DNA from: Terriglobia bacterium
Lineage (GTDB): Bacteria > Acidobacteriota > Terriglobia > Terriglobales > SCQP01
Direction of reading: 5' to 3'
Assembly (NCBI GenBank): GCA_021323595.1
Contig: JAJPKR010000006.1
Coordinates: 62,001 to 126,000, forward strand
Length of the DNA: 64,000 bases
Shown here piece after piece: positions 38,986 to 63,666 of the stretch. Position numbers and translations under genes: made by a program. The first letter of the stretch is position 1, and each line of letters begins with the position of its first letter. Under the pieces are notes generated by a model. The model was given only the letters and a program-made list of their open reading frames with translations. It searched no databases and had not been told where the DNA came from.

Positions 38986-38997
38986 CAAGGCCCGGAG

Positions 38998-46396: not shown

Positions 46397-47164
46397 ATGA
46401 GCACCGCTGAAGAAAAGGCGAGAGTTCGGGAACTGGCGGGTTTCTACCGAAGCGGCCAGCTCGATGTTGACCGCAAGTTGATCCGTTACCGGTTTCACGC
46501 GCTGCAGCCTCATTTCCGCCCGGGCGCGTTTCTGGAACTCGGTTCCGGCGATGGGGAGATGACCGCCCTGCTGACGGGGGTGGCGCAGCATCTGGTGGTA
46601 GTCGACGGGTCGCCCGAACTATTGGCCGAACTCCCCGACGCGCCCAACCTCCAGAAGATCTGCGCGCTGTTCGAAGAATTCGAGCCGGGGATGCGGTTCA
46701 ACACGGTCATTGCCGACCACGTGCTCGAACACGTGCTGGACCCCGTCGCGCTTTTGAAGCGGGCGGCAAATTGGGTGGCCCCGGGTGGCCGCCTGTTGGT
46801 CGGCGTTCCTAACGCCTTGTCAGTGCATCGGCTCGCCGCCGTGAAAATGGGACTGCTGAGCCACCCCGCCGCGTTGAACGACCGGGATCGCGCGCTCGGC
46901 CATCGGCGCGTTTACACTCTTGCCGAGCTCAGGCGCGATTTGGTGGAAGCCGGTTTGACCATTGCCGCAACCGGCGGGGTTTTTCTCAAGCCCCTATCCC
47001 ACGCCCAAATGCAGGAGCATTGGACCGACGCTATGCTCGCCGCCTTCTTTGAGCTGGGCGCGGAGTTTCCTCAGAACGCCGCCGAAATTTACGCGGCCTG
47101 CGAACCCCCTTCAACGATGCCAACTGTAAATCGCCAAGTCACCGACCGCCCGCAATGTAGGTGA
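46397..47164 (+). CDS. class I SAM-dependent methyltransferase
   Basis: The 255-residue protein has SAM motif I FLELGSGDGEMTALL (about 41-55), the acidic residue after strand 2 in LVVVDGSPELL, and motif IV IADHVLEHVLDP (about 108-119). GGRLLVGVPN follows, and the sequence then includes SVHRLAAVKMGLL. This is the methyltransf_11/23 pattern common in polysaccharide loci, where such enzymes methylate sugar hydroxyls or acyl groups. It has AAGGA 7 nt before the ATG and follows the structured intergenic element. Substrate unknown. Confidence 0.85.
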   Translation: MSTAEEKARVRELAGFYRSGQLDVDRKLIRYRFHALQPHFRPGAFLELGSGDGEMTALLTGVAQHLVVVDGSPELLAELPDAPNLQKICALFEEFEPGMRFNTVIADHVLEHVLDPVALLKRAANWVAPGGRLLVGVPNALSVHRLAAVKMGLLSHPAALNDRDRALGHRRVYTLAELRRDLVEAGLTIAATGGVFLKPLSHAQMQEHWTDAMLAAFFELGAEFPQNAAEIYAACEPPSTMPTVNRQVTDRPQCR

Positions 47165-47200
47165 GCCGGTCACCGACCGCGCAAACGAAAGGCCTCTACG

Positions 47201-48181
47201 ATGGACGCACACCAGGGGGCGGTCGGCTCAGAGCCGGCGGCGCCCTCGGCCAGCACCGTGACGGTCGCGGTGCTCGTTTTCAACCAGGCCCGGTTTGTCG
47301 CTGAATGCCTAGACAGCGTCGCCGAATCGGCCTACCCGCTGCTAGAAATTTTAATAGTGGATGACGCCTCGACGGACACCTCCGTTGCGAAGGTCCAGAG
47401 CTGGCGGAATGATCATCCTCAGATCCCCACGCGCCTCATCGCCCGCCCGTCGAACGTCGGCGTGCCCGCCAACCTAAACGCTGCCCTCCGCGGCGCGCAA
47501 GGCAGATACGTCGCCCTGGTCGCCGGGGACGACCGACTTCTGCCAGGCGGGATCGCTTGCAGGGTACGGTACCTCGAATCCAACCCGGACGCCCTTGCCT
47601 GTTTCGCCGACTGTCGCGTCATAAACGACCGCGGAGAAACCCTCTTTCCCAGCGGTATCGAGGGTCTCTACCGATCCCACGGCATGAGGAAGCGCTACTT
47701 GCTTTCCCGGAAACTGGTTCTACCCTCCGTAGTGCGCCACTGGGCGGTGCCTGGGCCCGTCCTGATGCTGCGGCGGGGTGCCCTCGACGCGGTCGGCGCC
47801 TTCGACGAGACGATTCCGTTCGGCGAGGACCGCGACATCTACCTGCGCCTGGCGGCCAAGGGCCGCCTAGGATTTGTGGACGAGGTCGTAGCAGAGTACC
47901 GAGTCCACGACGCAAGTGCGCTCCGCGTCCGAACCCGCCAGGTCGCATCCTCCGAGGCGCGAGTAGCCGCCCGGCACGCCCGCGGCTTGAGAGGCATGAA
48001 TCGGCTCTTCCTAACCGCGCAAGCAGCCAAACTGCGCGCGAGCGCACGCGGACGCTACGATCCCGCCAACATTCTGCTGAAGCTCGCCCTGAGCTCGCTC
48101 CGGACCCTCAGCGCCCTCACGCTCGACCTCCGCTGGCGCGCCGAGCGGCTCCGGCGCCGATCACGCCCCGCGGGCCGGTAG
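47201..48181 (+). CDS. GT2 family glycosyltransferase
   Basis: The 326-residue protein has a GT-A fold. The N-terminal part is TVAVLVFNQARFVAECLDSV, then the nucleotide-binding ILIVDDASTDTS. The DXD-like metal site is in ALVAGDDRLLPGG, and the acceptor motif FGEDRDIYLRLAAKG (about 205-219) corresponds to the ED of GT2 enzymes. The C terminus is basic, suggesting membrane association without transmembrane segments. It adds one sugar of the repeat unit. It lies 36 nt after the methyltransferase gene. Confidence 0.88.
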   Translation: MDAHQGAVGSEPAAPSASTVTVAVLVFNQARFVAECLDSVAESAYPLLEILIVDDASTDTSVAKVQSWRNDHPQIPTRLIARPSNVGVPANLNAALRGAQGRYVALVAGDDRLLPGGIACRVRYLESNPDALACFADCRVINDRGETLFPSGIEGLYRSHGMRKRYLLSRKLVLPSVVRHWAVPGPVLMLRRGALDAVGAFDETIPFGEDRDIYLRLAAKGRLGFVDEVVAEYRVHDASALRVRTRQVASSEARVAARHARGLRGMNRLFLTAQAAKLRASARGRYDPANILLKLALSSLRTLSALTLDLRWRAERLRRRSRPAGR

Positions 48182-48286
48182 TCTGGGACAATCCGCACGC
48201 GCCCAGCACCCACACCGGGGGTAACAGGCTATAACACCAAAAAACTCCCAAGATCAAAAACAGAGTCGATCCTTTGCTGAGCAGCT

Positions 48287-48292
48287 TATAAA
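48287..48292 (+). promoter_or_regulatory. -10-like TATAAA in an AT-rich gap
   Basis: TATAAA ends 7 nt before the GTG at 48300, inside an unusually A-rich intergenic stretch (48230-48295). It may be an internal promoter that lets the second half of the polysaccharide locus be expressed separately. Confidence 0.4.
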
Positions 48293-48299
48293 CGCACCC

Positions 48300-49223
48300 G
48301 TGACCAACGAAACATACGCGGTTGTCCTCAATTGGCGAAATGCGGAAGACACAATCCGATGCCTGCGCTCGATACTTTCCCAGAGCTCGCCGCCGACTCG
48401 CGTGCTCTGTGTCGACAACGGTTCCGGCGACGGCTCCGCAGAACGAATATCCAACGCATGCGGCGCGGTGGACCTAGTGTGTCTAGACTCCAACCTCGGC
48501 TTCGCAGCCGGGAACAACCGAGGCATCTCGCGCGCAATAAACGCCGGGGCGCAGTTCGTTTGGCTTCTGAACAATGACGCCGTCGCAGCCCCCAACTGTT
48601 TGGAGAACATGGTCCGCGCGGCAGAGACCCAGCCTGACGTTGCGGCCGTCGGGTCGGTCATCCTGGACTACGAGGCGCCCAACCGTCTGCAGGAATGGGG
48701 CGGGGGCCGCTTCGACCCACTGCTCGGCCGCTGCCTGGCGCACAGGAAACCCGTTCCCCCAGCTAGGCTCGGCTATATAACCGGCGCAAGCCTGCTCCTC
48801 CGTGTGGAGGCGCTGCGAGCCCTGGGGCTGCTCGACGAATCGTTCTTCCTTTACGGAGAGGACGTCGAGTTGGGGCAACGTCTCCGGCGCGCGGGCTGGC
48901 GGCTGGACGTCGCGCACCAAGCGCTCGTTTGGCACAAGCGCGGCGTGTCCACGTCCAGCGAGCGCAAAGAATACTACCTCAACATGGCGGCAGTCCGCCT
49001 GCAGAAAGCCTACGCCCCAGTGGCGCCGCTCATGGCCGTCTGCGGCACGGTCAGCAGGGTCCTCCGCTTCGCCGCCCGAAATGATTGGCGGCGCGCCGCC
49101 GCGGCCGCTTCGGGCGCCTGGGCCGGCTGGCAGGCCAAAGACGTGGGCTCCGGGGTCCCAGCGGCGCCTCAGTCCGCTAGCGGCCCGTGCGCGAGCGCCC
49201 CAAGCGTGGCGGAGACGCCATAG
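48300..49223 (+). CDS. GT2 family glycosyltransferase (rhamnosyltransferase-like)
   Basis: The 307-residue protein starts with YAVVLNWRNAEDTIRCLRSI and VLCVDNGSGDGS. It continues with LGFAAGNNRGI (about 68-78) and the DXD-like VWLLNNDAVA. The acceptor block is GASLLLRVEALRALGLLDE plus FFLYGEDVELGQRLRRAGW (about 180-198). This set is typical of the WbbL/RfbN-like rhamnosyl- and galactofuranosyltransferase group. The start is the GTG at 48300, preceded by TATAAA. The C-terminal 40 residues are Ala/Pro/Ser-rich and poorly conserved-looking. Confidence 0.88.
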   Translation: MTNETYAVVLNWRNAEDTIRCLRSILSQSSPPTRVLCVDNGSGDGSAERISNACGAVDLVCLDSNLGFAAGNNRGISRAINAGAQFVWLLNNDAVAAPNCLENMVRAAETQPDVAAVGSVILDYEAPNRLQEWGGGRFDPLLGRCLAHRKPVPPARLGYITGASLLLRVEALRALGLLDESFFLYGEDVELGQRLRRAGWRLDVAHQALVWHKRGVSTSSERKEYYLNMAAVRLQKAYAPVAPLMAVCGTVSRVLRFAARNDWRRAAAAASGAWAGWQAKDVGSGVPAAPQSASGPCASAPSVAETP

Positions 49224-49236
49224 GTAGCAGGTCCCA

Positions 49237-50553
49237 TTGCCACCCTCGCTTCTCATTTGCGCCTCCCTGACCACGCTGGCCATCGGCACATACCTCATCT
49301 GGCCCAGCCGCTGGAACGTGCCGGCGCACATGCAACTGGGCTTTGCACTCGTCGCCTATGTAATTCCCACCGCCGTCGGCGCTACTGACGGCTTTTCTCC
49401 ACAGCTCGTCGCGCTCTGCGCCGAGATTCTCTCTGTCGGGGCCGCGTGCTACCTGATCGGCCTCGTCGTCGGCTTTAAAACGACCGCAGGCAGACGGCCA
49501 CACCCAGGCGTTCCATCAGCACGCACCTTGGGCCCGTTCTTCCATGAATTTGTACAGCGTCGGGCGAGACTCATCGCTCTCGTCGGCCTGGTGGGGCTGT
49601 TCTCATGCTTCTACGCAATGGGCTTCGTCCCGGCCTTCGCCAACAATCCCCTCATGGCGAAGTTCTTTCGCGGCCCATACCACCTCGCTTACCAACGGGT
49701 GGCGTTGCCCTATCGCCTCTCCTTTTACACGCTGCTCCCACTCATCCCCGTTCTGCTCCTCCTGTGGTACTCCCTCCGGGATTGGATCGCGTTCCTGTTG
49801 GCCGCTTGCGCCACCCTTGGCGTCGCGCTCACGCTCTTCCGCGCGCCGATTGCCACCGGCGGCCTCCTTGCAATTGGGATCTGGGCTGCGCCGAGACGAG
49901 GCCGGTTCTACGCCTACCTCCTCCTCGTGGTGCTGGCCTTCCCGATCGGCGCCGGCTTGTACAAGATTCTCGGGGTGAGCAGCTACGCGGGGGCGAACCT
50001 TTGGCAAGTGATCGCGAGCGGAGCGCCCGACATCCGCGACCAGCTCGGGTTCTTCAACCACTTTTTGGCGGCGCCGGTCTTTTCCTACGGGCGCACGTTC
50101 TGGGGCGGGTTGATCCCTTGGCACTATCGCTGGAATCCGTCCGTGTTTACCCTGACCGTGGTCAACCGCGTCATCAGCATCCGCAGCATTGGGAGCGGCG
50201 GGCTGCGCCTCGCCGCGCCGCAGTGGGGCTATGTCGCGTTCGGATGGGCGGGAGCCGCCATCGTGCCCTTCCTGTCAGGCCTGATCTGGGGCCACGCAAC
50301 CAAGCTCCTGCGGCGAAATCTGGATGAGCGTGACTTGGTGCAAGCGGTAGTCCTAATGACCCTGTACACCACGCTATGGACGCAGCTCTCGCAGTTTTAC
50401 ACGCTGAGCATGTATGAGGCCCCGCAGATCTTGGTTGCCCTGCTCCTAGCCTACCCGATCGCATTGAGCCGCCGGGACGTGCAGCAGAGCCGCCGCCGGG
50501 CCTCCATGCGAACCTGGGCGCCGGAGGGACACGCGCCGGTGACAACCCTGTGA
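49237..50553 (+). CDS. polytopic membrane protein, probable Wzy-type polymerase
   Basis: The 438-residue protein has about 11-12 hydrophobic segments and an Arg/His-rich cytosolic C-terminal tail. The last third contains FGWAGAAIVPFLSGLIWG and TLWTQLSQFYTLSMYEA, as in O-antigen polymerases of the oligosaccharide repeat unit family. Wzy proteins share little sequence, so the call rests on topology and on its position between glycosyltransferase genes. The start codon seems to be TTG at 49237. The next gene's GTG overlaps its stop (GTGA). Together with the ligase-family protein at 39 kb, this locus has two polymerase-type candidates. Confidence 0.65.
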   Translation: MPPSLLICASLTTLAIGTYLIWPSRWNVPAHMQLGFALVAYVIPTAVGATDGFSPQLVALCAEILSVGAACYLIGLVVGFKTTAGRRPHPGVPSARTLGPFFHEFVQRRARLIALVGLVGLFSCFYAMGFVPAFANNPLMAKFFRGPYHLAYQRVALPYRLSFYTLLPLIPVLLLLWYSLRDWIAFLLAACATLGVALTLFRAPIATGGLLAIGIWAAPRRGRFYAYLLLVVLAFPIGAGLYKILGVSSYAGANLWQVIASGAPDIRDQLGFFNHFLAAPVFSYGRTFWGGLIPWHYRWNPSVFTLTVVNRVISIRSIGSGGLRLAAPQWGYVAFGWAGAAIVPFLSGLIWGHATKLLRRNLDERDLVQAVVLMTLYTTLWTQLSQFYTLSMYEAPQILVALLLAYPIALSRRDVQQSRRRASMRTWAPEGHAPVTTL

Positions 50554-51596
50554 GCCGCGGCGCGCGGAAGTCCGTCGCCCTGAATACAAGGGCCCTGAAC
50601 CTGCCGCTTACGGGGGTGCAGAGATACGTCGAGGAAATCATCAGTCACGCCGAAGGCCCCATCGCCGGCATGCGGCCGCCGCGCGCGGTCATGGGCGCAG
50701 CCGGCCACGCCTGGGAACAAGGAATTCTGCCGCTGCTCGTCCAAGGGCGCACCCTGTTCAGTCCCAGCAACACCGGCCCGCTGGCGGTGCGGCGCCAGGT
50801 AGTCACCGTGCACGATGTCGTGCCGCTCGACCATCCGGAGTGGCTCAATCCAAAATTCGCGCGATGGTATCGCTGGCTGCTGCCGAAGCTGGTCCGGCGT
50901 GTTGCCTGGGTGATTGCGATCTCGGAATTCACTCGAGAGCGGCTCATTGCGAAGACGCACGTGGCGCCGGGACGCGTTATCGTCATTCGGCACGGTGTCA
51001 ATCGCGGGTTCGCGCCGCAGTCGCGGCCGGTCATCGAGGCTGCGGTCAGAAGACTGGGGCTGCCGAGCGGGCGCTATTTCTTCTGCCTCGGTTCCCTGGA
51101 GCCGCGCAAGAACTTGGGCACGCTCCTTCAGGCGTGGGCCGCGGCGCAAAAGGAAATGGACGAAGACGTTTGGCTGGTAGTCGGGGGCGAGCGGGGCGCC
51201 GGGCGGGTCTTCGCGCCCCTGCATTTGCCGCCAAGCCCGCCGCGCACCTTCTGGGCCGGCCGCATCCCCGACGACGCGTTGGCCGCGGTTTATTCCGGCG
51301 CCCTCGCGTTTGTATACCCCTCGCTTTACGAAGGCTTCGGCGCGCCGCCGCTCGAAGCCCTGGCTTGTGGTACGCCCGCCATCGTGGGCGGCCGATCCGC
51401 GATGCCCGAGGTCGTGGGCGAGGCCGGGATCTTGGTCGACCCCGTCAGGCCCGATGATCTCAGCCAGGCGCTGCTTGATCTCGCGCGGGACTCCGCCCTT
51501 CGCGAGCGCCTAGTGAGCGCGGGCTTGAAGCGAGCGGCGCAATTCAGTTGGCCGGAAGCCGCGCGCAAGACCTGGGAGATCCTGCTTTCGGTTTAG
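50550..51596 (+). CDS. GT1/GT4 family glycosyltransferase (mannosyltransferase-like)
   Basis: The 348-residue protein has a GT-B fold. The N-terminal half carries LPLTGVQRYVEEII and VTVHDVVPLDHPEWL. The C-terminal nucleotide-sugar domain begins with FCLGSLEPRKNLGTLLQAW (about 172-190). It includes the conserved EX7E block PSLYEGFGAPPLEALACG (about 257-274) and SAMPEVVGEAG. It resembles WbdA/mannosyl- or rhamnosyltransferases. The GTG start overlaps the polymerase stop by 4 nt. It is the last rightward gene before the convergent beta-helix gene. Confidence 0.88.
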   Translation: MSRGARKSVALNTRALNLPLTGVQRYVEEIISHAEGPIAGMRPPRAVMGAAGHAWEQGILPLLVQGRTLFSPSNTGPLAVRRQVVTVHDVVPLDHPEWLNPKFARWYRWLLPKLVRRVAWVIAISEFTRERLIAKTHVAPGRVIVIRHGVNRGFAPQSRPVIEAAVRRLGLPSGRYFFCLGSLEPRKNLGTLLQAWAAAQKEMDEDVWLVVGGERGAGRVFAPLHLPPSPPRTFWAGRIPDDALAAVYSGALAFVYPSLYEGFGAPPLEALACGTPAIVGGRSAMPEVVGEAGILVDPVRPDDLSQALLDLARDSALRERLVSAGLKRAAQFSWPEAARKTWEILLSV

Positions 51597-51704: not shown

Positions 51705-54700
51705 TCAGGGCAGCACGCGAACGTTGTAGACGCTGGCGGCGGGCGTGCCGGCGGCGGCGGCGCAGACCTCGACCGTCACGCTGTTCGGCGCGTTCACGTA
51801 GCCTCGCCAGTAGAAGGCCGCGCCGGGGTAGGCTTGGGGCGTCGCCACGACCGCCATGCCCGGGCTGGCGCCGGCAACGGTGACGGTGCTGCTGGCGCAC
51901 TGGCCGGCGCTCAAGGCCGCGCCGCCGAGGGCGGCGCTGGCGGCGGCGAGAGGCAACTGCGTCGTCAGTGCCAGCGTTCCCGAGGCCGCCGGCTGGGCGA
52001 TCGTGTTGCCATTGACCTGGTAGGTCGCGGGCAGAGTGAGCGAGCCTGTCAGGGTTAAATTGCTGACCGTGCCGCCGGCGTCCGTTACGATGTTGCTGCC
52101 GTTGCCGGTCTGCCCCGTCAGCGGCGTGCCGCCGGCCAGCGCGAGTTGCGGCGCCGCGAGCGCTGAAGCCGAAAACGCGCCGGTGCGCGTCAAAGTGGCC
52201 AGCACGTGCGGCGTACCGCCGCTATCGAAGATTCGCCAGTCGAAGGCGGAGTTCGAGTTCTGCGGGGCGGGGAACTCATCCCAAAAATTGCCCTCGCCCG
52301 CGCCGCCGCTCGCGTTCCAAGTGAAAGCGAGCGCGCTCGGTCCGGCACTGGCGGCGCCGTTCTTCTCCGCGCGAATCTCGCCCTGTACGTTCAGGCTCCC
52401 GCGGCCGTCGATCGCATCCAGAAATACGTTAGGCACTTGCCAGATTTGCACCGGAGCGGTTTGCGCCGCGGCGCCGTCGACTTCCAGCGGCGTGCTGGCG
52501 GCCGCGCTGGCGGAGACGGCGATGCCGTTACTGCTCTCGATGAATGGCGACAGGTAGAAATTGGTTCCGGCAGGCCCGAGCCAGGAGTCGGTGGCTGTCC
52601 AGCGCGCGCCCGAATTGGGCGGCTGCGTCAGAATCGAGCCGATGAAATGGAATACCGGCGGGTTGTTCGTGTTGCCGGTGATCGGCCCAAAGACGTTGGA
52701 GCCGGTGCCGTTTAGGATCAGGGAGTCGAAAAAAGTCGCGCCCGCAAAAAAGGACCCCTGAATGATGGTTTGCCCGGCGCCGGCGTTGATCTGGCAGCCG
52801 GTGCAGGTGAAGCTGTCCACCTGCGGCGTCCCATTGCCGTTCGCGTCGATGGCGGCGCCCAAGTCGGGGTTGGCCCAAATCTGCGCGCCCAGGGCGGCCA
52901 CGACATTCGTGCCGGCGCCGCCGATCTCGATCCCCTGGGCGAAAAAGCCGCCGTTGATGGCCCCGTTCTGAACGTTAATGAGCAGCAGCCCGTTGTTCAG
53001 CATGATGTGGTCCACGGACTGCTCGCCGGTGGAGGCGAGCAGCGAGAGACCCACTGCGGGGATGGTGACGGGGTAGCTGGTGGGTCCATGCGCATGCTGC
53101 CAGTTGGTGAAGGGTGTGAAAGAGGTGCCGGTCACGCTCGCCACCGCGATGGCCTCGGCGTTCGCGCCGCGATCCACGATGACGGTTTCGCCCGGGTAGA
53201 TGCCGAACATCGAGGCCGGCGTGATCGCGGACTTGGTGCCGGCGGCGGCGCTGGTGGTGGCCGAGGTGGTCAAATCCGCAGCACCGCCATGGAGCGCGGC
53301 AATGGTGGCGTCGTTTTGGTTGTCGAGCTCGAAGGCGATGCCGGCGCAGCCGGAGGCGGCAAGGTCGCGGAAGATATTCTGCGTGGAGGGGCCGGGCGCG
53401 CCCGCCGGCAAGATCCACTGAGCGTCAAAACAGCCGGCGGTGCCGCCGCCGTCGATGGAGAAGCCCGACCATTCGCCGCCGGCGAAGTTATGGCGGGTGA
53501 GAATGAATCCCTGCGTGCCGGGCAGCGCGTGCAGGGTGACCTGATCGAAGTTGCGGCCGCCGCCAAGAATGACGGCGCCGCCGCCGATCTGGGCGAAGGC
53601 CGAGTAATTGCCCCAGGCCATCGGATCGCCGCCCTCGAGATTGCCGACCTGGTAATTGCCGGTGGCGATCACCACGGGAATGTTGGCGTCGCCGCCCGCC
53701 GTGAACGCTTCATTGAAGGCGTTGGTGCTGTCGCGGCTGTTGGTGGGATCGGCGCCCCACCAGATCGGATTGAGATGCGCGGTTCGCTGCGTGCCGAAGG
53801 CGACATAGCTGCCGCCGAAAATGGCCGTGGCATTCACGAGCGGCGCGCCGCCCGCGTTGGCGAAGGAGGCGGTCGCGGTCGTCGGGCTGCTGACGCCGGT
53901 AATCACGCCCACGAGCGGCAAATGCAAGCCGAACTGCGTCGCGGCGCTGGCGCCGCCGACATAGAGCTTGGTGCCGACATCCGCGGCGGAGAAGTTCGCG
54001 CTGGCGCTGGTCAAGGTGGCCGCGCCCGCGGCCATGGCCGCGTCGTGCACGATGACCGGCGCCGCCACCGAGAAGATTTGCTCATTGCCCGCCTCGATTT
54101 CGCCATTCACGGTGACCACGATCCCGGGGGGCAGCACCAGGCTGGCGCCCGCGGCGAAGCCGTAGCGGATGCCGGCGGGCAGGGTGAGGCTCGCCCCGAT
54201 CGTGTATTGGCCGGAAGGGATGTACAGTTCGCCCGCAAAGCCGGCGGTGGCATTTGTGAGGCAGGTTTGATCCAACACGCCCGGCGTGGCGCACCACTGG
54301 TCGGCGTAGCGCACGCCCCCGATGGTGGCTGCCGCCACCCCCGTGGTCGCCGTGGCGATGGCGGCCGCGGCCGTGTAGTTCGTGCCGTTCCAGTGATACC
54401 AGGTCTGCGCGCCGCCGCGCTGATCCAGGATCTGCACTTGCGGGGAGCCCGTGGCGCTCGCAATCACGGCGGCGGGCGCCGACCAATCCGGCGTGAGCAG
54501 AACACTGCCCCCCCGCCCGCCCAGGTAGTTGATGGCCTCTTGCAGCCCATCCGTGGCCGAGTGCACGAAGAGGCGCCCGTCGTGGGCATGGGCGAACGTG
54601 GCCGTCAAGGTGCACGGCGCGGCCCCCGCGATCACGCACGTAGAGGTGGCCACGACCACGGTTTCCGTGGCGGCGCCGTCCTCGACGACGATCGGCACGC

Positions 54701-54944
54701 CCGCGCCCCAAGGTTCGAAGGCCCGGCCATCGGCCAGCGTCAGCCAGCCCGGCTCGACCTGGATGGTGCCGCTGCCCCCCGCTGGCGCGGTTACCTGCGC
54801 CTCGATGCGCCAGTCGAACTGGCTGGCGACCGCCCGGCCGGCCATTTGGAAGCGCGTCAGCCCCTGGCCCGCGGCCAGCGACAGCAGCGCCAAGAACGCG
54901 GGCGCGCAGCGCCGCGCGCCGCCTGCGTTACTCGGAACTCCCAT
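51705..54944 (-). CDS. large secreted parallel beta-helix protein (paralogue A, tailspike/pectate-lyase-like)
   Basis: The 1079-residue protein starts with a signal-like hydrophobic stretch (CAPAFLALLSLAAGQG). A short beta domain precedes the motif QWCATPGVLDQTCLTNA at about 211-230, shared with two neighbours. A Pectate_lyase_3-like parallel beta-helix begins near WWGADPTNSRDSTNAFNEAF (about 395). The C-terminal 130 residues look like phage tail-fibre ends (SGTLALTTQLPLAAASAALG) followed by a beta domain (YWRGYVNAPNSVTVEVC). It is probably surface-exposed and binds or cleaves polysaccharide. No catalytic residues can be assigned. Base composition is like the rest of the genome. Confidence 0.7.
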   Translation of the reverse strand: MGVPSNAGGARRCAPAFLALLSLAAGQGLTRFQMAGRAVASQFDWRIEAQVTAPAGGSGTIQVEPGWLTLADGRAFEPWGAGVPIVVEDGAATETVVVATSTCVIAGAAPCTLTATFAHAHDGRLFVHSATDGLQEAINYLGGRGGSVLLTPDWSAPAAVIASATGSPQVQILDQRGGAQTWYHWNGTNYTAAAAIATATTGVAAATIGGVRYADQWCATPGVLDQTCLTNATAGFAGELYIPSGQYTIGASLTLPAGIRYGFAAGASLVLPPGIVVTVNGEIEAGNEQIFSVAAPVIVHDAAMAAGAATLTSASANFSAADVGTKLYVGGASAATQFGLHLPLVGVITGVSSPTTATASFANAGGAPLVNATAIFGGSYVAFGTQRTAHLNPIWWGADPTNSRDSTNAFNEAFTAGGDANIPVVIATGNYQVGNLEGGDPMAWGNYSAFAQIGGGAVILGGGRNFDQVTLHALPGTQGFILTRHNFAGGEWSGFSIDGGGTAGCFDAQWILPAGAPGPSTQNIFRDLAASGCAGIAFELDNQNDATIAALHGGAADLTTSATTSAAAGTKSAITPASMFGIYPGETVIVDRGANAEAIAVASVTGTSFTPFTNWQHAHGPTSYPVTIPAVGLSLLASTGEQSVDHIMLNNGLLLINVQNGAINGGFFAQGIEIGGAGTNVVAALGAQIWANPDLGAAIDANGNGTPQVDSFTCTGCQINAGAGQTIIQGSFFAGATFFDSLILNGTGSNVFGPITGNTNNPPVFHFIGSILTQPPNSGARWTATDSWLGPAGTNFYLSPFIESSNGIAVSASAAASTPLEVDGAAAQTAPVQIWQVPNVFLDAIDGRGSLNVQGEIRAEKNGAASAGPSALAFTWNASGGAGEGNFWDEFPAPQNSNSAFDWRIFDSGGTPHVLATLTRTGAFSASALAAPQLALAGGTPLTGQTGNGSNIVTDAGGTVSNLTLTGSLTLPATYQVNGNTIAQPAASGTLALTTQLPLAAASAALGGAALSAGQCASSTVTVAGASPGMAVVATPQAYPGAAFYWRGYVNAPNSVTVEVCAAAAGTPAASVYNVRVLP

Positions 54945-55189
54945 TGTTTTCTGTCCTCAGAGGCCCCCGATACGCTACGATGCGAAACACACGGCTTGGG
55001 TTGCCCAGCCTCAAGTGACTCTCCCCAGCCAGACACAGTGAGTCGCACCCCGGTTCTCATACCGGTCAAAAACGAAATCCGCTGCGTCGGAGCCCGGCCG
55101 CGACGTCCCCACGCAACAGCCCGCGCCCGCGGACACCAGCCGACCCACCACCGCCCGGCTCAAAAAGAAATAGAGGTCCACACGCAAAA

Positions 55190-56968
55190 ATGCACCCACC
55201 CGAAAGACCAGGGACACCGGCGCCATCACAACCCACACGCCTTCACTTCCGTGGACGAGCTGTCCTCGTCGCGGCATTACTATTAACGGCTCCCTTTCCG
55301 GCGCCCGCTCAAGCCGTCCCCCCGGACGCTTCGGCAAGGTACGCGCCAAAATGGTGCACCCACCCCGGCGTCCTTGACCAGTCCTGCATCGAAAATGCGG
55401 CCCGAGGCAACTTTCGGGGCACGATCATCCTTGGCCCCGGCAGCTACACAATCAAATCGACGCTCGACATCCCGACCGGCGTCGCACTCCTCGGCGCCCA
55501 GCGGCCACCTTGGCCCAGGTACCCGGCAAACGACGGAGCGCCCACCCTCCTAATCCAGGTCGGCAAGGGTGCCACGTCGGTTCCGGCCGTCAGGATGCAC
55601 CCAAACTCAGCAATCTCGGGGGTCCGTCTCTACTGGCCAACCCAATCCCACACCGCCCCAGTCCCGTTCGGCTGGGCCATAACATCAACCGGCGACCCCT
55701 CCGATGACATGGTAATAGTGCGCAATATAGCCCTGGTGAACCCATACCTCGGGATAAATCAGGACTTCGGCGGCCAATGGCAAATCGAAAACGTGTACGG
55801 CCAGCCACTCAAGGTAGGCATCAAAATGGACAGGGTCTACGACGGCACGGAGATCCGCAACGTGCACTTTTGGACATTCTGGCAGAACCAGGGCCCGGCC
55901 TACCAATTCGCCCAAGCAAACGGCACCTGCATCCTCATAGAACGCGTCGACCTTCTAAACGCGAACGCGATCGAGTGTTACGGCTACCGAAACGGCATCG
56001 ATTTCGAAGGTTCAAGCAGCGGCGCCGCATGGGCCAACATATCCGACTTCGGCATCGACAGTACGAGCCACCCCATAATCATCAACAGCGCCAACCTGAT
56101 AAATCTCTCCGATGGCACCCTGTCTGGCAGCGTCACGGCGGGCTACGGCTGGGGAATCCAGACCGGCCAAAACGTCGGCACCCACTCGATGGTCCTCGTC
56201 TCCAACGTCGTCGCCTATGCCCTATTCGGCGGCGCCGACATCCGGAGCGCGACCGGCAACTTCAGCCTATTAAACTTCGCCGGGAGAGCCGGCTCCGACA
56301 ACGAAGTTCAGCAGGTCGGCACCAGCGACCTCATGGGCCCGCTGCTCGTAAACGAGTCCACGGCGGATGTCCAACTCACCGGCGTGCACGCCGACCCAAA
56401 AGCCGTCATTGGCAATTTATGGGGCGGCCCCTCAACATCTATAAACGGTGTCCCATTCCCCCCCGCGAACCCCTACACCGCGCCCACTCTCTTCGCTGTA
56501 AAAGCCAACGACCCAAAGTCCCCCTATGCAAGGCCCACACATGATGGCCTGACTCTCGAACTCGCCACCGGCCCGGCCCCAGCCACGGTCACACTAACTC
56601 CCACCAAGCCCGTCCCCCCTGGCGCCTACATAATGTCGCTCCGCATTACCCGCGACGTCCCTTGCACCGGCCCATGCCAGCTGGCCGTCGTGCTCATTTC
56701 GGCCGACGGCGACGCACTCGCCCGCTGGCCCTGGTCCCCATTCTCCATCGAAAACCTGCCCTCAGGCACAATCAGCGTTTCCCTCCCGCTGCTCCTCTCG
56801 CGGCAAACCGCAACCGCACGCTGGACCTTCGGCGGCGGCAAGGCGGGCCGCGTCGAGATCTCCAAAGTGAAACTAACCCCCGCGGACCCCTCAGCCGCCC
56901 TCCGCTCAATGATCAAGGGCACAATCTACTCACTGGGGCCACCGACACACACCCCAAGCAGAAAATAG
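55190..56968 (+). CDS. secreted beta-helix protein (paralogue B)
   Basis: The 592-residue protein has a signal peptide with a charged start and hydrophobic core (AVLVAALLLTAPFPAPAQA). The motif KWCTHPGVLDQSCIENA follows at about 54-70, as in paralogues A and C, and leads into GTIILGPGSYTIKSTLDIP, the first turn of a parallel beta-helix. The helix runs to about residue 430. A C-terminal jelly-roll-like domain covers about 450-590. It lacks the WWGA block of A and C. Codon use differs from genes outside this island. It could be a polysaccharide-binding or -degrading surface protein; no active site is recognised. Confidence 0.7.
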   Translation: MHPPERPGTPAPSQPTRLHFRGRAVLVAALLLTAPFPAPAQAVPPDASARYAPKWCTHPGVLDQSCIENAARGNFRGTIILGPGSYTIKSTLDIPTGVALLGAQRPPWPRYPANDGAPTLLIQVGKGATSVPAVRMHPNSAISGVRLYWPTQSHTAPVPFGWAITSTGDPSDDMVIVRNIALVNPYLGINQDFGGQWQIENVYGQPLKVGIKMDRVYDGTEIRNVHFWTFWQNQGPAYQFAQANGTCILIERVDLLNANAIECYGYRNGIDFEGSSSGAAWANISDFGIDSTSHPIIINSANLINLSDGTLSGSVTAGYGWGIQTGQNVGTHSMVLVSNVVAYALFGGADIRSATGNFSLLNFAGRAGSDNEVQQVGTSDLMGPLLVNESTADVQLTGVHADPKAVIGNLWGGPSTSINGVPFPPANPYTAPTLFAVKANDPKSPYARPTHDGLTLELATGPAPATVTLTPTKPVPPGAYIMSLRITRDVPCTGPCQLAVVLISADGDALARWPWSPFSIENLPSGTISVSLPLLLSRQTATARWTFGGGKAGRVEISKVKLTPADPSAALRSMIKGTIYSLGPPTHTPSRK

Positions 56969-56978
56969 CCCGCCTGGG

Positions 56979-58721
56979 TCAGCCAGGCGCGCAGGCAACC
57001 GAGAACACGGCCCCAGCGGCCGGAGGGTGGTGCAGGGTCACGCTGGCCCCAGAAACGGTCACATACACCCCGCTCATTGCAGCCGCCGAGTCACTCGCCG
57101 GCGAAAACCAGCAACGGCTCAGCCTGCTCGTCCCCCGAAAGGACACCGTGTCCTCAACCGAGGCGGAAGTCCGCAACGAAACACTACCCGCGATCTCCCC
57201 GGCGGGCCCCGTCGTCCCGTTCGGCCCCTCTCCGTTGGTCTGAACCAGGACCATCTGCCCGTTCTCCGCAGCCGACCCCGAGATGAAACACGAGTCAACC
57301 TCGAAACGCGGCGGATATCCGACCTGGCTCGTCGTCACCGGCCCAAAGACGTCGCCCGGGCCGAAATACGTGGACGAGAACCTACCACCAAGCCCGAATT
57401 TGCCCGCGATCATGAACTGCCCCGGCCCCGCGCCGATAAACCAACAGCCCACACAGCTAACCGACACCGTCCCCAAAAAACCCGAATTCGTCGAGTTAAG
57501 GGCTACCCCGGTTGCAGGGTCCATACCAACCTGCACCCCCACCATCGCAATCATGTTGAGGGCCTGCCCCCCGAGCTCTATCCCCCCGAAAAACATATCA
57601 TTCGTCATGCTCATGTTCTGCACGGAGACCCAAACCGCCCCTCCAAACGCCACATCGTCAACAAGCGACCCCCACCCGCTCTCCGCGTCCATATGGATGG
57701 CAAACTCATCTGCCCCAGGATCAGCCACCATATTAATGGAGTTGTCACTCACGACCGAGTCATTGTCGTTGTCAAGGTCAAGCCCGATCCCCCGACAGCG
57801 CAAAAGGTTAAGGTCGGTAACAACGTCCTGCGCCGACGGCGCGGAGCCCTGGAACCAACTAAGGTCCAAGCAACTTGCAGTGCCCGCGCCGTCGATCGTC
57901 AGGTCGCGGATATCGGCGCGCGTGATATTGTGGCGCTGCAATAAGAAACCCGAGGTACCCGGCTTAGCGACGAGGACCGTCTGATAGATCCCCCTCCCCC
58001 CGCCGCCGCCCCTCACGCTAACAATCGACGGCGCCGCCGCCGTCGACCCCGCTCGAGCCGCAGTGGCAGGGTCGCCCAACTGAAGATTCCCAACCAAATA
58101 GGTCCCAGGGGGAATAACGACCGCCAGCCCACTCCGCTCCCCCGCCGTCAGAGCCTCCTGCAACGCCAAAGTATCGTCGGCCACCCCATCACCAGCCGCG
58201 CCCCACCACCTCGCGTTCAAAGCATCAACGGCACGGTTTCCCCGAAACTCGACGTCGGGGCCGCCCGACGCCGACTCTCCGACGAAGATTCGATAATTGC
58301 CGGCCTGAATACCCCCCAGCACCCGAAACGGGCGCGACGAGCCCGAACTAACCATCGCGCCCGGCATCATGCGGATCATCACGTCCGCAGGCACGGTCAA
58401 GCCCCCACCCGGATAACGACCACGCGGAACCAAGACCTCTCCACCGGGCGCAACGCTGCGCAGAGCATTCAAGAGGCACGTCGAATCAATCACGCCAGGG
58501 TCGCTGCACGACTCCAACGCGTCCACCTCCGCAAACTCCCGCCGGACAGCAACCGGCCCCCGCTCCGAGTGCGGCCCTGGCCCTACAGGCGGCCTCGGTA
58601 TACCGACGCGCCGAGGCCCCCAGGGGCCCGCCTGCGCCGCCAAGCCCGACACCCCCAGCAGAATGAAAACCAGCCAGAGATGCTTCCAGAGCGCCCACCT
58701 AAACCACGCGCCCCCAATCAC
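56979..58721 (-). CDS. secreted beta-helix protein (paralogue C, Pectate_lyase_3-like)
   Basis: The 580-residue protein starts with a signal peptide (LWKHLWLVFILLGVSGLAAQA). The motif SCSDPGVIDSTCLLNAL follows at about 69-85. The Pectate_lyase_3 signature is NARWWGAAGDGVADDTLALQ, next to GTYLVGNLQLGD. It aligns with paralogue A throughout: KPGTSGFLLQRHN against LPGTQGFILTRHN, and DVFGPVTTSQVGYPPRF against NVFGPITGNTNNPPVF. I prefer the GTG at 58721, just before the signal peptide, to the distal TTG at 58889, which would add about 56 residues of poor composition. This leaves a 167-bp divergent promoter region with the GT1 gene. Confidence 0.7.
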   Translation of the reverse strand: MIGGAWFRWALWKHLWLVFILLGVSGLAAQAGPWGPRRVGIPRPPVGPGPHSERGPVAVRREFAEVDALESCSDPGVIDSTCLLNALRSVAPGGEVLVPRGRYPGGGLTVPADVMIRMMPGAMVSSGSSRPFRVLGGIQAGNYRIFVGESASGGPDVEFRGNRAVDALNARWWGAAGDGVADDTLALQEALTAGERSGLAVVIPPGTYLVGNLQLGDPATAARAGSTAAAPSIVSVRGGGGGRGIYQTVLVAKPGTSGFLLQRHNITRADIRDLTIDGAGTASCLDLSWFQGSAPSAQDVVTDLNLLRCRGIGLDLDNDNDSVVSDNSINMVADPGADEFAIHMDAESGWGSLVDDVAFGGAVWVSVQNMSMTNDMFFGGIELGGQALNMIAMVGVQVGMDPATGVALNSTNSGFLGTVSVSCVGCWFIGAGPGQFMIAGKFGLGGRFSSTYFGPGDVFGPVTTSQVGYPPRFEVDSCFISGSAAENGQMVLVQTNGEGPNGTTGPAGEIAGSVSLRTSASVEDTVSFRGTSRLSRCWFSPASDSAAAMSGVYVTVSGASVTLHHPPAAGAVFSVACAPG

Positions 58722-58888: not shown

Positions 58889-60184
58889 ATGAGAAACCCC
58901 AGCCCTATCCAAAACGATGCCGAGGCCCACGCCCAGGCGCTCAGCCAAGCCCGCGTCGCTATCGTCCACCACTGGTTCGTGCGCCAGGGCGGCGGCGAGC
59001 GCTTCGTCGAGCACCTAGCTAACCTCCTACCCCAAGCAGATCTCTACGCACTGGTCGCCTGCCGCCAGGGGACACCGCCCGCGCTTCGACCTCGCAAGGT
59101 CGCAACGTCATTCCTCCAGCGCTTCCCGGGCTCCCGCCGCTGGCACAGGCTGTACATGCCGCTGTTCCCGCTCGCCCTCGAGCAGTTCGACCTCAGCGCC
59201 TACGACCTCGTTATCAGCTCCGAATCCGGCCCCGCGAAAGGTGTAATCACACCCGCAAGAACCTGCCACATCTGCTACTGCCACACCCCAATGCGGTACA
59301 TCTGGGAAATGTATCCCCAGTACCTGCGCACCGCACCCTTCGGCCCGCTGGGCCGCGCAATCTTCGCCGCCTCCGCCCATTACCTGCGTCAATGGGACCT
59401 CTCGACCGCCGCCCGCGTCGACTTCTTCGCTGCCAACAGCGCGAACACAGCCAGGAGAATTGCGAAAGTCTACCGCCGCACAGCAGAAATAATCCACTGC
59501 CCGATCGACACGAAGCCATTCGCAGCCCCCCGCCAACCAGAGGACTTCTACCTGGTCGTGTCCCGCCTCGTCAGCTACAAGCGAATCGATCTCGCAGTGT
59601 CCGCATGCAAAGACCTTCACAGGCATCTCGTCGTAATCGGGGACGGCGAGGACGCAAGAGCCCTAGCCCAAGGCGCCGGCCCGACGACCAAGTTTCTCGG
59701 CCGGTGCACCGACGAGACAATTCGAGACCATTACCGCCGCGCCAGGGCCCTACTCTTCCCTGGGGAGGAGGACCACGGCCTCGCCCCAATCGAGGCCCAG
59801 GCCGCCGGCTGCCCAGTTATCGCCTTCGGCAGGGGGGGAGCCCTCGAAACCGTGCGGGGCCGCTGGGTCGGCCAGGACGGCCCCGAAAAACCCACAGGAG
59901 TCTTTTTCAGCGCGCAAACGCGCGAGAGCCTCGCCGAGGCAATCCTCTTTTTCGAAAGAAACCAGGCCGAGTTCTCCCCAAACGCAGCCCGCGCGAACGC
60001 CGAGCAATTCGACGTATCCCATTTCCGCCGAAAGATGGCTCACTTCATCGAGCGCTGCATGGCCCAAAAGTCCGAATCCGCGGCCCAGGACGCGCCAAGC
60101 ACACCGCCGAATCCAAACCCCGCCCCGCCCCCAAACAGCCGGAGCGGGCCGAGCACACCCCATTTACCACCTCACACCCACTGA
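58889..60184 (+). CDS. GT1/GT4 family glycosyltransferase (WbaZ-like mannosyltransferase)
   Basis: The 431-residue protein has a GT-B fold. The N-terminal VAIVHHWFVRQGGGERFVEH (about 23-42) and CYCHTPMRYIWEMYPQYL (about 128-145) are characteristic of the WbaZ/mannosyltransferase group. The C-terminal domain has YLVVSRLVSYKRIDLAV (about 211-227) and the FPGEEDHGLAPIEAQAAGCPVI donor-site block (about 289-310), and GGALETV. The C-terminal tail is Pro/Asn-rich and probably disordered. It lies in the compositional island, separated from the main glycosyltransferase block by the beta-helix genes. It may add a side-chain sugar. Confidence 0.87.
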   Translation: MRNPSPIQNDAEAHAQALSQARVAIVHHWFVRQGGGERFVEHLANLLPQADLYALVACRQGTPPALRPRKVATSFLQRFPGSRRWHRLYMPLFPLALEQFDLSAYDLVISSESGPAKGVITPARTCHICYCHTPMRYIWEMYPQYLRTAPFGPLGRAIFAASAHYLRQWDLSTAARVDFFAANSANTARRIAKVYRRTAEIIHCPIDTKPFAAPRQPEDFYLVVSRLVSYKRIDLAVSACKDLHRHLVVIGDGEDARALAQGAGPTTKFLGRCTDETIRDHYRRARALLFPGEEDHGLAPIEAQAAGCPVIAFGRGGALETVRGRWVGQDGPEKPTGVFFSAQTRESLAEAILFFERNQAEFSPNAARANAEQFDVSHFRRKMAHFIERCMAQKSESAAQDAPSTPPNPNPAPPPNSRSGPSTPHLPPHTH

Positions 60185-60295
60185 GCGCCGAGGCACGCAG
60201 TCACGAAAACTCCCACGCACAAAGTGCGCCCACGAACGTAGCCACCCATCAGGGCGATTGTCCGCCCACCCGCCCCTTGCTACCCTACCCAAGCG

Positions 60296-61162
60296 ATGTC
60301 CGGCACCAGGCGAAAAAACTACACGTACGAACCGCCGCGCATCGTCCGGGCCGAGCGGTTCATTACGGAGATGCCGGGCAGCTCGCGAGCCGTGCTCCTG
60401 GAGGCCGACGACGGCAACCGCTACACGGTGAAGACCGCCCACCGCACTGCTCTCCCTCGCCTCCTCGCGAACGAATACGTCGCTACTAGGCTCGCTGGCG
60501 CCCTTCACCTCCCCATAACCGCGCTCGCCATCGTCCACCTAACGCTGCCCTTCCTGCGCTCGAATTTCCCAGCCATTAAGAAAACCCGCAGCGGCCCGGA
60601 ATGGTTCGTGCCGGGAGAGGCGTTCGGCTCGCTCACGCAAACCGCAGTCGCCAACTCACGGGAGGCCCCGGCCCTGGCGCTGCACGCGGCGAACCGCCAC
60701 GCCTTCGCCTCAATACTCCTCTTCGACCTCTGGACCGCGAACCTAGACACCCGCCAGGTCGCCTTCGAAACACTCGGAGGCCGAACATGGGCGAAGATGA
60801 TCGACCAAGGCCACTGCTTCAACGCCGGTGAATGGGGGAGCCTCGCCTCCACAAGAGCGTGGCCGCTATTCTGCCACGCCGGCGTCTATTCGGCCGTGTC
60901 AACCTGGCGAGCGTTCGAACCGCAGCTTGGCCGAATCGAGGCCGTCGAAGCCGCCGACGTCCTCGCCGCAACCGAATCCATGCCACCACACTGGTGCGCC
61001 CGAGCGGACCTGATCGGACTCGCAAATGCGCTCGTCAGCCGCGCCACCACCCTGCGCGATAGAATCACCGAGGTTTTGGTCGCCCGCTCCGATTTATTCC
61101 CGCGCTGGTTCCGCACACGATCAGCGAAGCCCACAGAGCCACCGATCCAGGCCATCGCCTGA
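60296..61162 (+). CDS. HipA-family kinase-like protein
   Basis: The 288-residue protein resembles the 'HipA family kinase' group of small stand-alone HipA-like proteins. Visible elements are the lysine-containing strand RYTVKTAHR (about 42-50) and NEYVATRLAGALHLPI (about 59-74). The catalytic-loop-like FDLWTANLDTRQ (about 143-154) and the metal-loop-like MIDQGHCFNAG (about 166-176) follow. These correspond to the N..D and DxG/DHG motifs of HipA kinases. The usual HipB antitoxin gene is absent. TACCCT ends 9 nt before the ATG. Its place between a glycosyltransferase and rfb genes is unusual. The substrate is unknown. Confidence 0.65.
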   Translation: MSGTRRKNYTYEPPRIVRAERFITEMPGSSRAVLLEADDGNRYTVKTAHRTALPRLLANEYVATRLAGALHLPITALAIVHLTLPFLRSNFPAIKKTRSGPEWFVPGEAFGSLTQTAVANSREAPALALHAANRHAFASILLFDLWTANLDTRQVAFETLGGRTWAKMIDQGHCFNAGEWGSLASTRAWPLFCHAGVYSAVSTWRAFEPQLGRIEAVEAADVLAATESMPPHWCARADLIGLANALVSRATTLRDRITEVLVARSDLFPRWFRTRSAKPTEPPIQAIA

Positions 61163-61356
61163 CAACTCACCAACGAACGGGCCGCGCCATCCTGCGAAAG
61201 CCATCCTCCCCCGCCCACGCCACAGCTCCGCGACGCCCCCGTCGCCGCCCAAACCCCCCCCCGCGCGCGCCCGGGTTATCATTAACAGTTCGCGGCAGCC
61301 GCTAAACCAGCCGCCCCACCCCACCCGAGCCGCCACCGAAAACCAAGAGAGCACCC

Positions 61357-61941
61357 GTGCCTTTCCGAATAGAGCCAATCCACCTCCCCGGCGCCCTCGT
61401 CATCGAAAACGACGCCTTCCGCGACGAGCGCGGGTTTTTCCGCGAGGTGTTTCGCGCCGACCGCTTTCGCGAGCTCGGCCTGCCCGCCGAGTTCGTCCAA
61501 GACAATCACTCCGGCTCGAAGCGCGGCGTGGTGCGCGGCCTGCATTTTCAGTGGGAGCCCCCCATGGGGAAGCTGATGCGGGTGACGGTGGGCGCGGCGT
61601 TTCTGGTGGCCGTGGATATCCGCAAGGGCTCGCCTACGCTCGGCAAGTGGGTGGGCATCGAAGCCTCGGCGGAGAACGGCAAGCAGCTCTGGGCGCCGGC
61701 GGGCTTTGCCCGCGGCTTTTGCGCGCTGACGGATTGCGAGGTCCAGTACAAGTGCACCGGCGTCTATAATGCGCAAGGGGAGTCCGGCATCCGCTGGAAC
61801 GATCCCGCCATCGGCATCGCCTGGCCGGTCGCCAATCCGTCGCTCTCGGCCAAGGACGCCGCGGCGCAGACGCTGGCGGAGTGGCTGGCGCGGCCCGAAT
61901 CCGACCGCTTCCGGTTCGATCCCGCCCACCCCAACCGATAG
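61357..61941 (+). CDS. rfbC: dTDP-4-dehydrorhamnose 3,5-epimerase
   Basis: The 194-residue cupin enzyme has the RmlC signatures DERGFFREVFRADRF (about 23-37), QDNHSGSKRGVVRGLHFQ with the catalytic His63, and GKLMRVTVGAAFLVAVDIR. WAPAGFARGFCALTD lies at about 112-126, and WNDPAIGIAWP near the end. It converts dTDP-4-keto-6-deoxyglucose to the L-lyxo form for L-rhamnose. The start is a GTG. rfbB follows 37 nt downstream. An rfbD gene is not in the window. Confidence 0.93.
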   Translation: MPFRIEPIHLPGALVIENDAFRDERGFFREVFRADRFRELGLPAEFVQDNHSGSKRGVVRGLHFQWEPPMGKLMRVTVGAAFLVAVDIRKGSPTLGKWVGIEASAENGKQLWAPAGFARGFCALTDCEVQYKCTGVYNAQGESGIRWNDPAIGIAWPVANPSLSAKDAAAQTLAEWLARPESDRFRFDPAHPNR

Positions 61942-61978
61942 GCGTAAAGAGACGCTTCGAACCCACCCTGAGAGAAAG

Positions 61979-63010
61979 ATGCGATTGCTCGTCACCGGCG
62001 GGGCCGGCTTCATCGGCAGCAACTTCGTGCGCCACGCGCTGCGCGCGCAGCGCGATCTCGAACTGACCAACCTCGATGCCCTGACCTACGCCGGCAATCT
62101 CGAGAACCTCGCGGAGCTGGAGGCGGATCCGCGCTACCGCTTCGTGCACGGCGACATCTGCGACGCGGCGCTCGTGGACCGGCTGATGGCCGGCCAGGAC
62201 GCGGTGGTGCATCTGGCGGCGGAGTCGCACGTGGACCGCAGCATTCTCGACGCGGCCGCCTTCATCCGCACCAACGTGCAGGGCACGCAGACCCTGCTCG
62301 ATGCCGCGCGCCGCCGCCAGGTGGCGCGCTTCGTGCACGTCTCGACCGACGAGGTCTATGGCTCGCTCGGCGCCGAGGGCAAGTTCACCGAGGCCAGCCC
62401 GCTCGCGCCCAACTCCCCCTACGCCGCCTCCAAGGCCGCCGCCGAGCTGCTCGTGCGCGCCGCCTTTCACACGCACGGCCAGCCGGTGGTGATCACCCGC
62501 GGCAGCAACAATTACGGCCCCTACCAGTTTCCCGAAAAGTTCATTCCCTTGGCGATCGCCAACGCGCTGGCCGGGCAGCCGGTGCCGCTGTACGGGGAAG
62601 GGAAGAACGTGCGCAATTGGATTCACGTCGCCGATCATTGCGCCGGTATCTGGGCCGCGCTCGAGCGCGGGCGCGCGGGCGCGGTGTACAACCTCGGCGG
62701 CGACGACGAGGTGGATAATTTGACGCTGCTGCGGCGCATCCTCGCGCGCCTCGGGCGCGACGAATCGCTGATCCGCTTCGTCCCCGACCGGCCCGGCCAC
62801 GACTTCCGCTACGCGCTCGATTCCGCGCTCGCGCGCCGCGAGCTCGGCTGGCGGCCGGCGCTCTCGCTCGACGAGGGCCTCGATCGCACCGTCGCCTGGT
62901 ATCGCGCCAACGGCGCCTGGCTCGAGCGTGCGCGCGACGGCGCCTACCGTAGCTATTACGAAACCCAGTACCGCGCCCGCCTCGAGCGCGGCCAGGAAGC
63001 GCGTCCATGA
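61979..63010 (+). CDS. rfbB: dTDP-glucose 4,6-dehydratase
   Basis: The 343-residue SDR enzyme has the NAD motif LLVTGGAGFIGSNFVRHAL (about 4-22). Others are LDALTYAGNLENL, HLAAESHVDRSI (about 81-92), the catalytic STDEVYGSL (about 121-129) and SPYAASKAAAELLV with the Tyr-x3-Lys pair, then RGSNNYGPYQFPEK and RPGHDFRYALD. It makes dTDP-4-keto-6-deoxy-D-glucose, the common precursor for L-rhamnose and for the FdtA/FdtB product. The start is supported by GAGAGAAAG before the ATG. The nucleotidyltransferase start overlaps its stop by 4 nt. Confidence 0.95.
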   Translation: MRLLVTGGAGFIGSNFVRHALRAQRDLELTNLDALTYAGNLENLAELEADPRYRFVHGDICDAALVDRLMAGQDAVVHLAAESHVDRSILDAAAFIRTNVQGTQTLLDAARRRQVARFVHVSTDEVYGSLGAEGKFTEASPLAPNSPYAASKAAAELLVRAAFHTHGQPVVITRGSNNYGPYQFPEKFIPLAIANALAGQPVPLYGEGKNVRNWIHVADHCAGIWAALERGRAGAVYNLGGDDEVDNLTLLRRILARLGRDESLIRFVPDRPGHDFRYALDSALARRELGWRPALSLDEGLDRTVAWYRANGAWLERARDGAYRSYYETQYRARLERGQEARP

Positions 63011-63666
63011 AATCGGAACTCAAGGGAGTCATTCTCGCCGGCGGCCTCGGCTCGCGGCTCTATCCGCTCACCAAGGTCACCAACAAGCACCTGCTGCCGG
63101 TGTATGACAAGCCGATGATCTATTACCCGATCGCGACGCTGGTGAACGCCGGCGTCCGGGAGATCATGATCGTCACCGGCGGCAACAGCGCCGGCGACTT
63201 CTTGCGGCTGCTCGAGAACGGCGAGGAAGTCGGCTGCTCGCTGCGCTATGCCTATCAGCGCGGCGAGGGCGGCATCGCTGACGCGCTGCGGCTGGCGCGC
63301 GATTTTGCCGCCGGCGGGCGCATCTGCGTGGTGCTGGGCGACAATCTCATCGAGGGCAACGTCTGCGACGCGGCGCGGGCGTTCTTGGCGCAGCCGCGCG
63401 GCGCCCGCCTGCTGGTGAAGCAAGTCGCCGATCCCGAGCGCTTCGGCGTGGCCACACTCGAGGGCGGTCGCATCGTGCGCATCGAGGAGAAGCCTCGCCA
63501 TCCCGCCTCGAATTATGCCGTCACCGGCATTTATTTCTACGACGAGACGGTCTTCGAGAAGATCGCGCGCTGCCGTCCCTCGGCTCGCAAGGAGCTGGAG
63601 ATCACCGACGTGAACAATCTCTACCTCGAGGAAGGCACGCTGGAGTACAGCGAACTCGAAGGCTAG
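63007..63666 (+). CDS. rfbA: glucose-1-phosphate nucleotidyltransferase (RfbA-type), cut short by an amber codon
   Basis: The 219-residue reading frame has the nucleotidyltransferase signature GVILAGGLGSRLYPLTKVTNK-like (about 7-27), YDKPMIYYPIATL, the metal-binding VVLGDNLIEGN, and FGVATLEGGRIVRIEEKP. It ends LEYSELEG followed by TAG at 63664-63666. Homologues read LEGWWTDAGTF here. The next in-frame codons encode WTDAGTFPSLLRAQQLVAQ and continue to a TAG at 63775. So TAG replaces the first of two tryptophans (TGG to TAG is one base). Without readthrough the protein lacks its last 37 residues, including the conserved WTDAGTF segment. It would make dTDP-glucose for rfbB. The ATG overlaps the rfbB stop (ATGA). 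Confidence 0.85.
   Translation: MKSELKGVILAGGLGSRLYPLTKVTNKHLLPVYDKPMIYYPIATLVNAGVREIMIVTGGNSAGDFLRLLENGEEVGCSLRYAYQRGEGGIADALRLARDFAAGGRICVVLGDNLIEGNVCDAARAFLAQPRGARLLVKQVADPERFGVATLEGGRIVRIEEKPRHPASNYAVTGIYFYDETVFEKIARCRPSARKELEITDVNNLYLEEGTLEYSELEG

Follow-up and report, generated by a model that had tools for sequence, protein, structure and literature searches.

The window analyzed here, a 64,000-nucleotide stretch of the genome of a Terriglobia bacterium, contains three neighboring genes (A, B, and C) for putative secreted beta-helix proteins. As an initial annotation of the sequence had proposed, they lie at a polysaccharide locus: the surrounding genes make up a complete Wzx/Wzy exopolysaccharide (EPS) locus, and A, B, and C, each an intact reading frame, are flanked by two glycosyltransferase genes. 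The features are listed below by position in the window and strand.

32814..51596 (+), upstream part of the EPS locus: Wzz/tyrosine-kinase-like protein, export protein, priming sugar transferase, Wzy_C, DegT (aminotransferase), Wzx flippase, FkbH, acetyltransferase, methyltransferase, and glycosyltransferases; the protein at 49237 is Wzy-like by inspection
51705-54944 (-), gene A, 1079 aa: signal-like N terminus, N-terminal module, Cys cap, second (WWGA) opening and beta-helix, C-terminal module
54864..54944 (-), A: Sec-like signal segment MGVPSNAGGARRCAPAFLALLSLAAGQ, predicted by a simple signal rule and an aligned relative
54360..54893 (-), A: N-terminal module, aa 18-195
54249-54293 (-), A: Cys cap motif CATPGVLDQTCLTNA, C218 and C228
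53310..53771 (-), A: second opening (PIWWGA) and helix stretch homologous to C, with IDGGGTAGCFD and LDNQND
51708..51962 (-), A: C-terminal module, about aa 995-1079
55190-56968 (+), gene B, 592 aa: signal segment, Cys cap, beta-helix of the phrog_32881 kind, C-terminal region
55190..55315 (+), B: Sec-like signal segment ending PAPAQA, predicted by the simple signal rule
55355-55399 (+), B: Cys cap motif CTHPGVLDQSCIENA, C56 and C66, aligned with the FGARGxGxTDDTAAFQRAL opening of relatives
56979-~58721 (-), gene C, ~580 aa: signal segment, Cys cap, PF12708 helix
58629..58721 (-), C: Sec-like signal segment ending GLAAQA, predicted by the simple signal rule from a GTG start
58464-58508 (-), C: Cys cap motif CSDPGVIDSTCLLNA, C72 and C82
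57759..58214 (-), C: WWGAAGDGVADDT opening and helix, with IDGAGTASCLD and LDNDND (PF12708)
58889..63666 (+), downstream part of the EPS locus: GT4, HipA_2-like kinase, GDP_Man_Dehyd/epimerase, nucleotidyl transferase

The GTG start of C lies at 58721 or slightly upstream, and there is no ATG ahead of its signal-like segment. Two genomes of another genus (G005 and G019) carry a syntenic EPS locus, in which the GT4 (65%), epimerase (72%), and nucleotidyl transferase (75%) match those of the window more closely than the other proteins do (42-51%). Both have different beta-helix genes in the slot equivalent to A, B, and C. The slot is conserved and its content variable, as would be expected of proteins matched to a varying polymer. 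The annotated neighbors of A, B, and C include no phage gene, and encoding among virion genes is a feature of their relatives only.

The three proteins had been described as paralogues, which is accurate for two of them. As first reported, the helices of A and C can be aligned with each other (41% over 176 aa, E 8e-29; 34% over 125 aa), and both proteins have the WWGA opening; the two also match at the cap (40% over 78 aa). They further have two acidic motifs in common, IDGxGTAxCxD and LDNxND, which could be catalytic. The similarity of A and B, in contrast, covers only ~49 aa at the cap (49%, E 6e-12), with none further along. Full-length paralogy of all three is thereby ruled out; B belongs to a different beta-helix family that has the cap segment alone in common with A and C. 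The codons of the three caps diverge at many synonymous positions, which makes a recent duplication of the cap among these genes unlikely.

C passes the PF12708 (Pect-lyase_RHGA_epim) gathering cut-off of 27 bits (41.9 bits, E 1.3e-10, residues 169-387), while A and B matched no Pfam family at E ≤ 1, PF12708 included. Against PHROGs, A and C gave weak tail-spike matches, and the helix of B matched phrog_32881 ("pectin lyase activity"). Within the order, the B helix has relatives among other beta-helix proteins encoded on the chromosome. Viral contig L118 encodes a tailspike of 647 aa that also aligns with B (27%, E 8e-13); this tailspike itself matches phrog_32881 (E 1.4e-26), and its gene is preceded by one matching the head-closure family phrog_578 (4e-94). 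Scans of viral contigs with B alone or with the helix core of A and C returned no relatives, and phmmer searches of all PDB chains with A and B returned no beta-helix protein at E ≤ 1.

The two AlphaFold models, one for B and one for C, are poor (mean pLDDT values of 40.4 and 37.7 in the two runs, with the C model run first). The low-pLDDT B model aligned over ~290 residues (Z 17-18.6) with the Sf6 tailspike, PfbA, AlgE epimerases, inulin fructotransferases, and RbmB; matches to the similarly low-scoring C model reached a Z of about 10. Such alignments speak for the fold but for no finer detail. Foldseek gave no match to either model at E ≤ 0.001, with E > 0.01 throughout. Together with PF12708 in C and both phrog_32881 and the L118 tailspike for B, the fold matches of these weak models support the beta-helix and tailspike relationship proposed at the outset. 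The best-predicted part of the C model (block pLDDT 58-72) surrounds the second cap cysteine, which falls in a short alpha-helix (mature residues 49-58) right before the first strands.

The cap motif, C-x2-PGV-[LI]-D-x-[TS]-C-x2-NA (C-x9-C), is present in A, B, and C at the sites where it was first noticed. Among 396 genomes of the phylum, a degenerate DNA pattern of the motif matched only the source genome, at three sites, while a reversed control pattern had no matches in the same set; these results rule out the motif as a chance match. Across ~85,000 species, the degenerate pattern gave five matches, none encoding a related protein, as expected of chance. Wide occurrence in unrelated proteins, which had been named as grounds for rejecting the motif, was thus not seen in either scan. 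The same pattern found one true relative in viral contigs. Looser patterns and a six-sequence profile added true relatives in five other genomes of the order (G109, G059, G038, G617, and G045, the last with two adjacent genes), as well as in a second phage contig; the two phage contigs with capped helices are L052 and L054. Neither A nor the L052 cap region had a match in a tblastn search of annotated phages.

We defined the Cys-capped beta-helix subfamily by C-x9-C, an aspartate three residues before the second cysteine, and a following first-turn strand. It has 11 members: A, B, C, the six relatives in G109, G059, G038, G045, and G617, and the two in L052 and L054. Both cysteines are invariant in 11/11 sequences, and the proline, glycine, and asparagine vary. 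The cap motif marks a rare subfamily. When B was aligned with relatives of 400-odd residues, KWCTHPGVLDQSCIENAA occupied the place of FGARGxGxTDDTAAFQRALDAA. Helices of the Pectate_lyase_3 type usually open with a stretch of this kind. Neither cysteine occurs in the B relatives that have this canonical opening, some other relatives (e.g., L008) keep the second and have another one further along, and a close relative of A (L034) has YADQFPGADIGARVNAA at the cap position. The motif is best described, on sequence grounds, as a cysteine-bearing local variant of the Pectate_lyase_3 opening (FGAxGDGxTDDTxAFQ) that forms a predicted N-terminal helix cap. A new fold element is ruled out, since the motif sits where the normal GDGxTDDT opening stands. 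The suggestion of an undescribed family holds for a small subfamily, but goes no further than that.

A disulfide between the cap cysteines was proposed in the initial annotation, and the predicted pairing fits the absence of both cysteines from the aligned B relatives. Mature A has 10 cysteines and mature B has 6. The capped helices of G059 and G038 lie outside EPS loci, so a cap does not by itself point to a role in EPS. The three proteins had also been described as secreted. Signal-like N termini with clear hydrophobic cores and cleavage sites were found on A, B, and C by a simple rule, a crude one that gives false positives at internal starts. For A, the signal segment aligns with MNQIRANLLGALSIVLALGLPVAAQ of a relative in G015, where it is followed by GLTRYEM.

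Both ends of A are shared with phage-associated proteins. Its C-terminal ~85 aa, originally noted as phage tail-fiber-like, recur in proteins of prophage-like clusters whose genes lie near phage portal- and terminase-like genes, consistent with that description. A profile of the N-terminal module matched 12/14 genomes of the family. Eight copies of this module lie in EPS or related polysaccharide loci and 13 in prophage-like clusters, one of the latter belonging to a second family; the contexts were assigned mostly by eye from ORF translations, some on short contigs. One cluster, in G001, is phage by profiles, with a terminase (phrog_979, 2e-53), a virion structural protein, and a major head protein, and one N-module protein of this cluster ends in a K1-lyase C-terminal domain. 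In a tree of 21 N-modules, EPS and prophage labels were intermingled: five changes were needed, at least two of them forced by well-supported branches, and monophyly of the EPS copies was rejected (AU P = 0.008). Three rows of this tree are on long branches, and it supports moves without indicating their direction. The modules thus appear, from this phylogeny, to have moved repeatedly between EPS loci and prophage tail regions.

Among known systems, the closest in setting is WceF of Pantoea stewartii, a stewartan hydrolase that is encoded in an EPS cluster and folds like a tailspike; its knockouts have longer chains, and WceF also agglutinates stewartan (PMC7949094). Like WceF, whose cluster contains Wzc, A, B, and C sit inside a polysaccharide biosynthesis locus and are predicted to combine an export signal with a tailspike-like right-handed beta-helix bearing an N-terminal alpha-helix cap (PMC7949094). 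They differ in having Sec-like signals instead of the Tat signal of WceF, and a cap cysteine pair, whereas the WceF paper mentions no disulfides (PMC7949094). Moreover, the locus has three such genes instead of one, and A and B have no homology to WceF by sequence in the phmmer search of PDB chains. RbmB of Vibrio cholerae, encoded in the rbm matrix cluster, is a VPS lyase with a parallel beta-helix, a signal peptide, and predicted disulfides (PMC11637428). It matched the weak models of B (Z 17.9) and C (Z 9.7) in fold, at only 7-11% identity. The likeness of A, B, and C to WceF and RbmB, then, lies in the type of locus and in the predicted fold and predicted export signal, and does not extend to sequence. 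Compared with PF12708 proteins, of which C is one by score, the Cys pair stands in for the GDGxTDDT opening. The predicted fold is also like that of phage tailspike depolymerases (Sf6, phrog_2234, and phrog_32881), and tail proteins of phages or prophages contain the helix type of B and the modules of A. Unlike phage tailspikes, A, B, and C are encoded in an EPS locus, with signal segments and without virion genes around them.

We consider it somewhat probable that A, B, and C are exported helices of the WceF and RbmB type that act on the cell's own EPS and whose modules have been exchanged with prophage tailspikes. Sec export would be the first step. The exported helices would then act on the polysaccharide made by the locus, most likely by cleaving or modifying it and possibly by binding it; cleavage or modification would amount to chain-length trimming and matrix remodeling. 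A C-x9-C disulfide would pin the N-terminal alpha-helix cap to the first turn of the beta-helix, replacing the GDGxTDDT opening. The helix genes would fill the variable slot of a syntenic locus, their modules having moved repeatedly between EPS loci and prophage tail regions. A fairly unlikely alternative is that the helices are noncatalytic matrix proteins that bind EPS, acting as lectin-like cross-linkers or as adhesins keeping the polymer attached to cells. The adhesin PfbA is among the best fold matches, WceF itself agglutinates its polymer (PMC7949094), and no enzyme family is recognizable beyond PF12708 in C. Yet by sequence the nearest families are tailspikes and helices like those of pectate lyases and rhamnogalacturonases, and the K1-lyase domain on a prophage relative of the A N-module also speaks against this alternative.

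We regard it as improbable that the proteins work in the periplasm on the nascent chain, modifying it without cutting, as an AlgG-like C5 epimerase or a comparable enzyme would. The B model matches AlgE epimerases and an alginate epimerase/lyase as well as it matches tailspikes, and the signal segments predict periplasmic delivery at least, but no sequence feature singles out epimerases and the Z scores of these fold matches all lie within 1 unit of each other. The modules that both ends of A share with prophage tail-position genes, along with the PHROG tail matches, could instead mean that the genes are stranded remnants of prophage tailspikes with no current role. This seems very unlikely given three intact frames with signal segments, annotated neighbors without a phage gene, and the recurrence of helix genes at the equivalent slot in related genomes.

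Exported, EPS-active helices could be part of a wider pattern, which we put forward tentatively, as possible rather than probable: phages and prophages of this group may encode tailspike-like proteins with Sec signals that, instead of merely being put together in the cytoplasm, are exported, disulfide stapled, and able to remodel host EPS, and their cassettes may have been domesticated in host EPS loci. If so, prophage tailspike-like proteins could serve in, for example, superinfection exclusion or release, and EPS chemistry and phage receptor enzymes would evolve by swapping one shared gene pool. Few EPS-locus enzymes with a tailspike or beta-helix fold are known, WceF and RbmB among them. 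With the same N-module in EPS loci and prophage tail regions of one bacterial family, and evidence of several moves between them, the origin of such enzymes becomes testable. A, B, and C are themselves candidate polymer-specific enzymes for poorly studied polysaccharides.

One unexpected observation was that the prophage copies of the N-module also start with Sec-like signal segments. If confirmed, signal peptides on proteins encoded at prophage tail positions would call for a new account of their role; a search of the literature on phage tail proteins with signal peptides, or on prophages and EPS in Acidobacteria, found nothing on point. The two phage contigs with capped helices carry signal-like segments as well. 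In the prophage copies of G011 and G007, near-identical mature parts follow different hydrophobic leaders ending A-Q, a pattern typical of cleaved signals.

Across window positions 54950-61480, the A+C content of the plus strand is 0.54-0.68, compared with mostly 0.43-0.55 elsewhere. The edges of this A+C-rich island are sharp, and it takes in the capped-helix genes B and C, the GT4 gene, and the HipA_2-like kinase gene, whichever way the genes point. It is possible that the stretch is of separate origin. The kinase gene lies within the exopolysaccharide (EPS) locus:

60296-61162, HipA_2-like kinase

In genome G110, a relative of this kinase (32%) adjoins portal/terminase-like genes. Such genes also adjoin those of long proteins from G110, G130, and G119 (stretches L111, L112, and L115, respectively), which have the C-terminal module of A in common. 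These proteins are very long (1164-1862 aa) and signal-bearing.

Capped helices were also encoded elsewhere. One lies on an element with an integrase and DnaB (G109:C58:443930-456123; L067, L068), perhaps a small or decayed prophage; no terminase was found in the part that was read. In G045, two adjacent genes encode capped helices (L135; G045:C8:342297-351330), with one packaging-ATPase-like and one capsid-like frame, read by eye only, a few kilobases away. This region is perhaps another virus-like element. In the tail region of phage contig L052, which also carries a capped helix, five frames in succession (L052:753-7823) each start with a signal-like segment.
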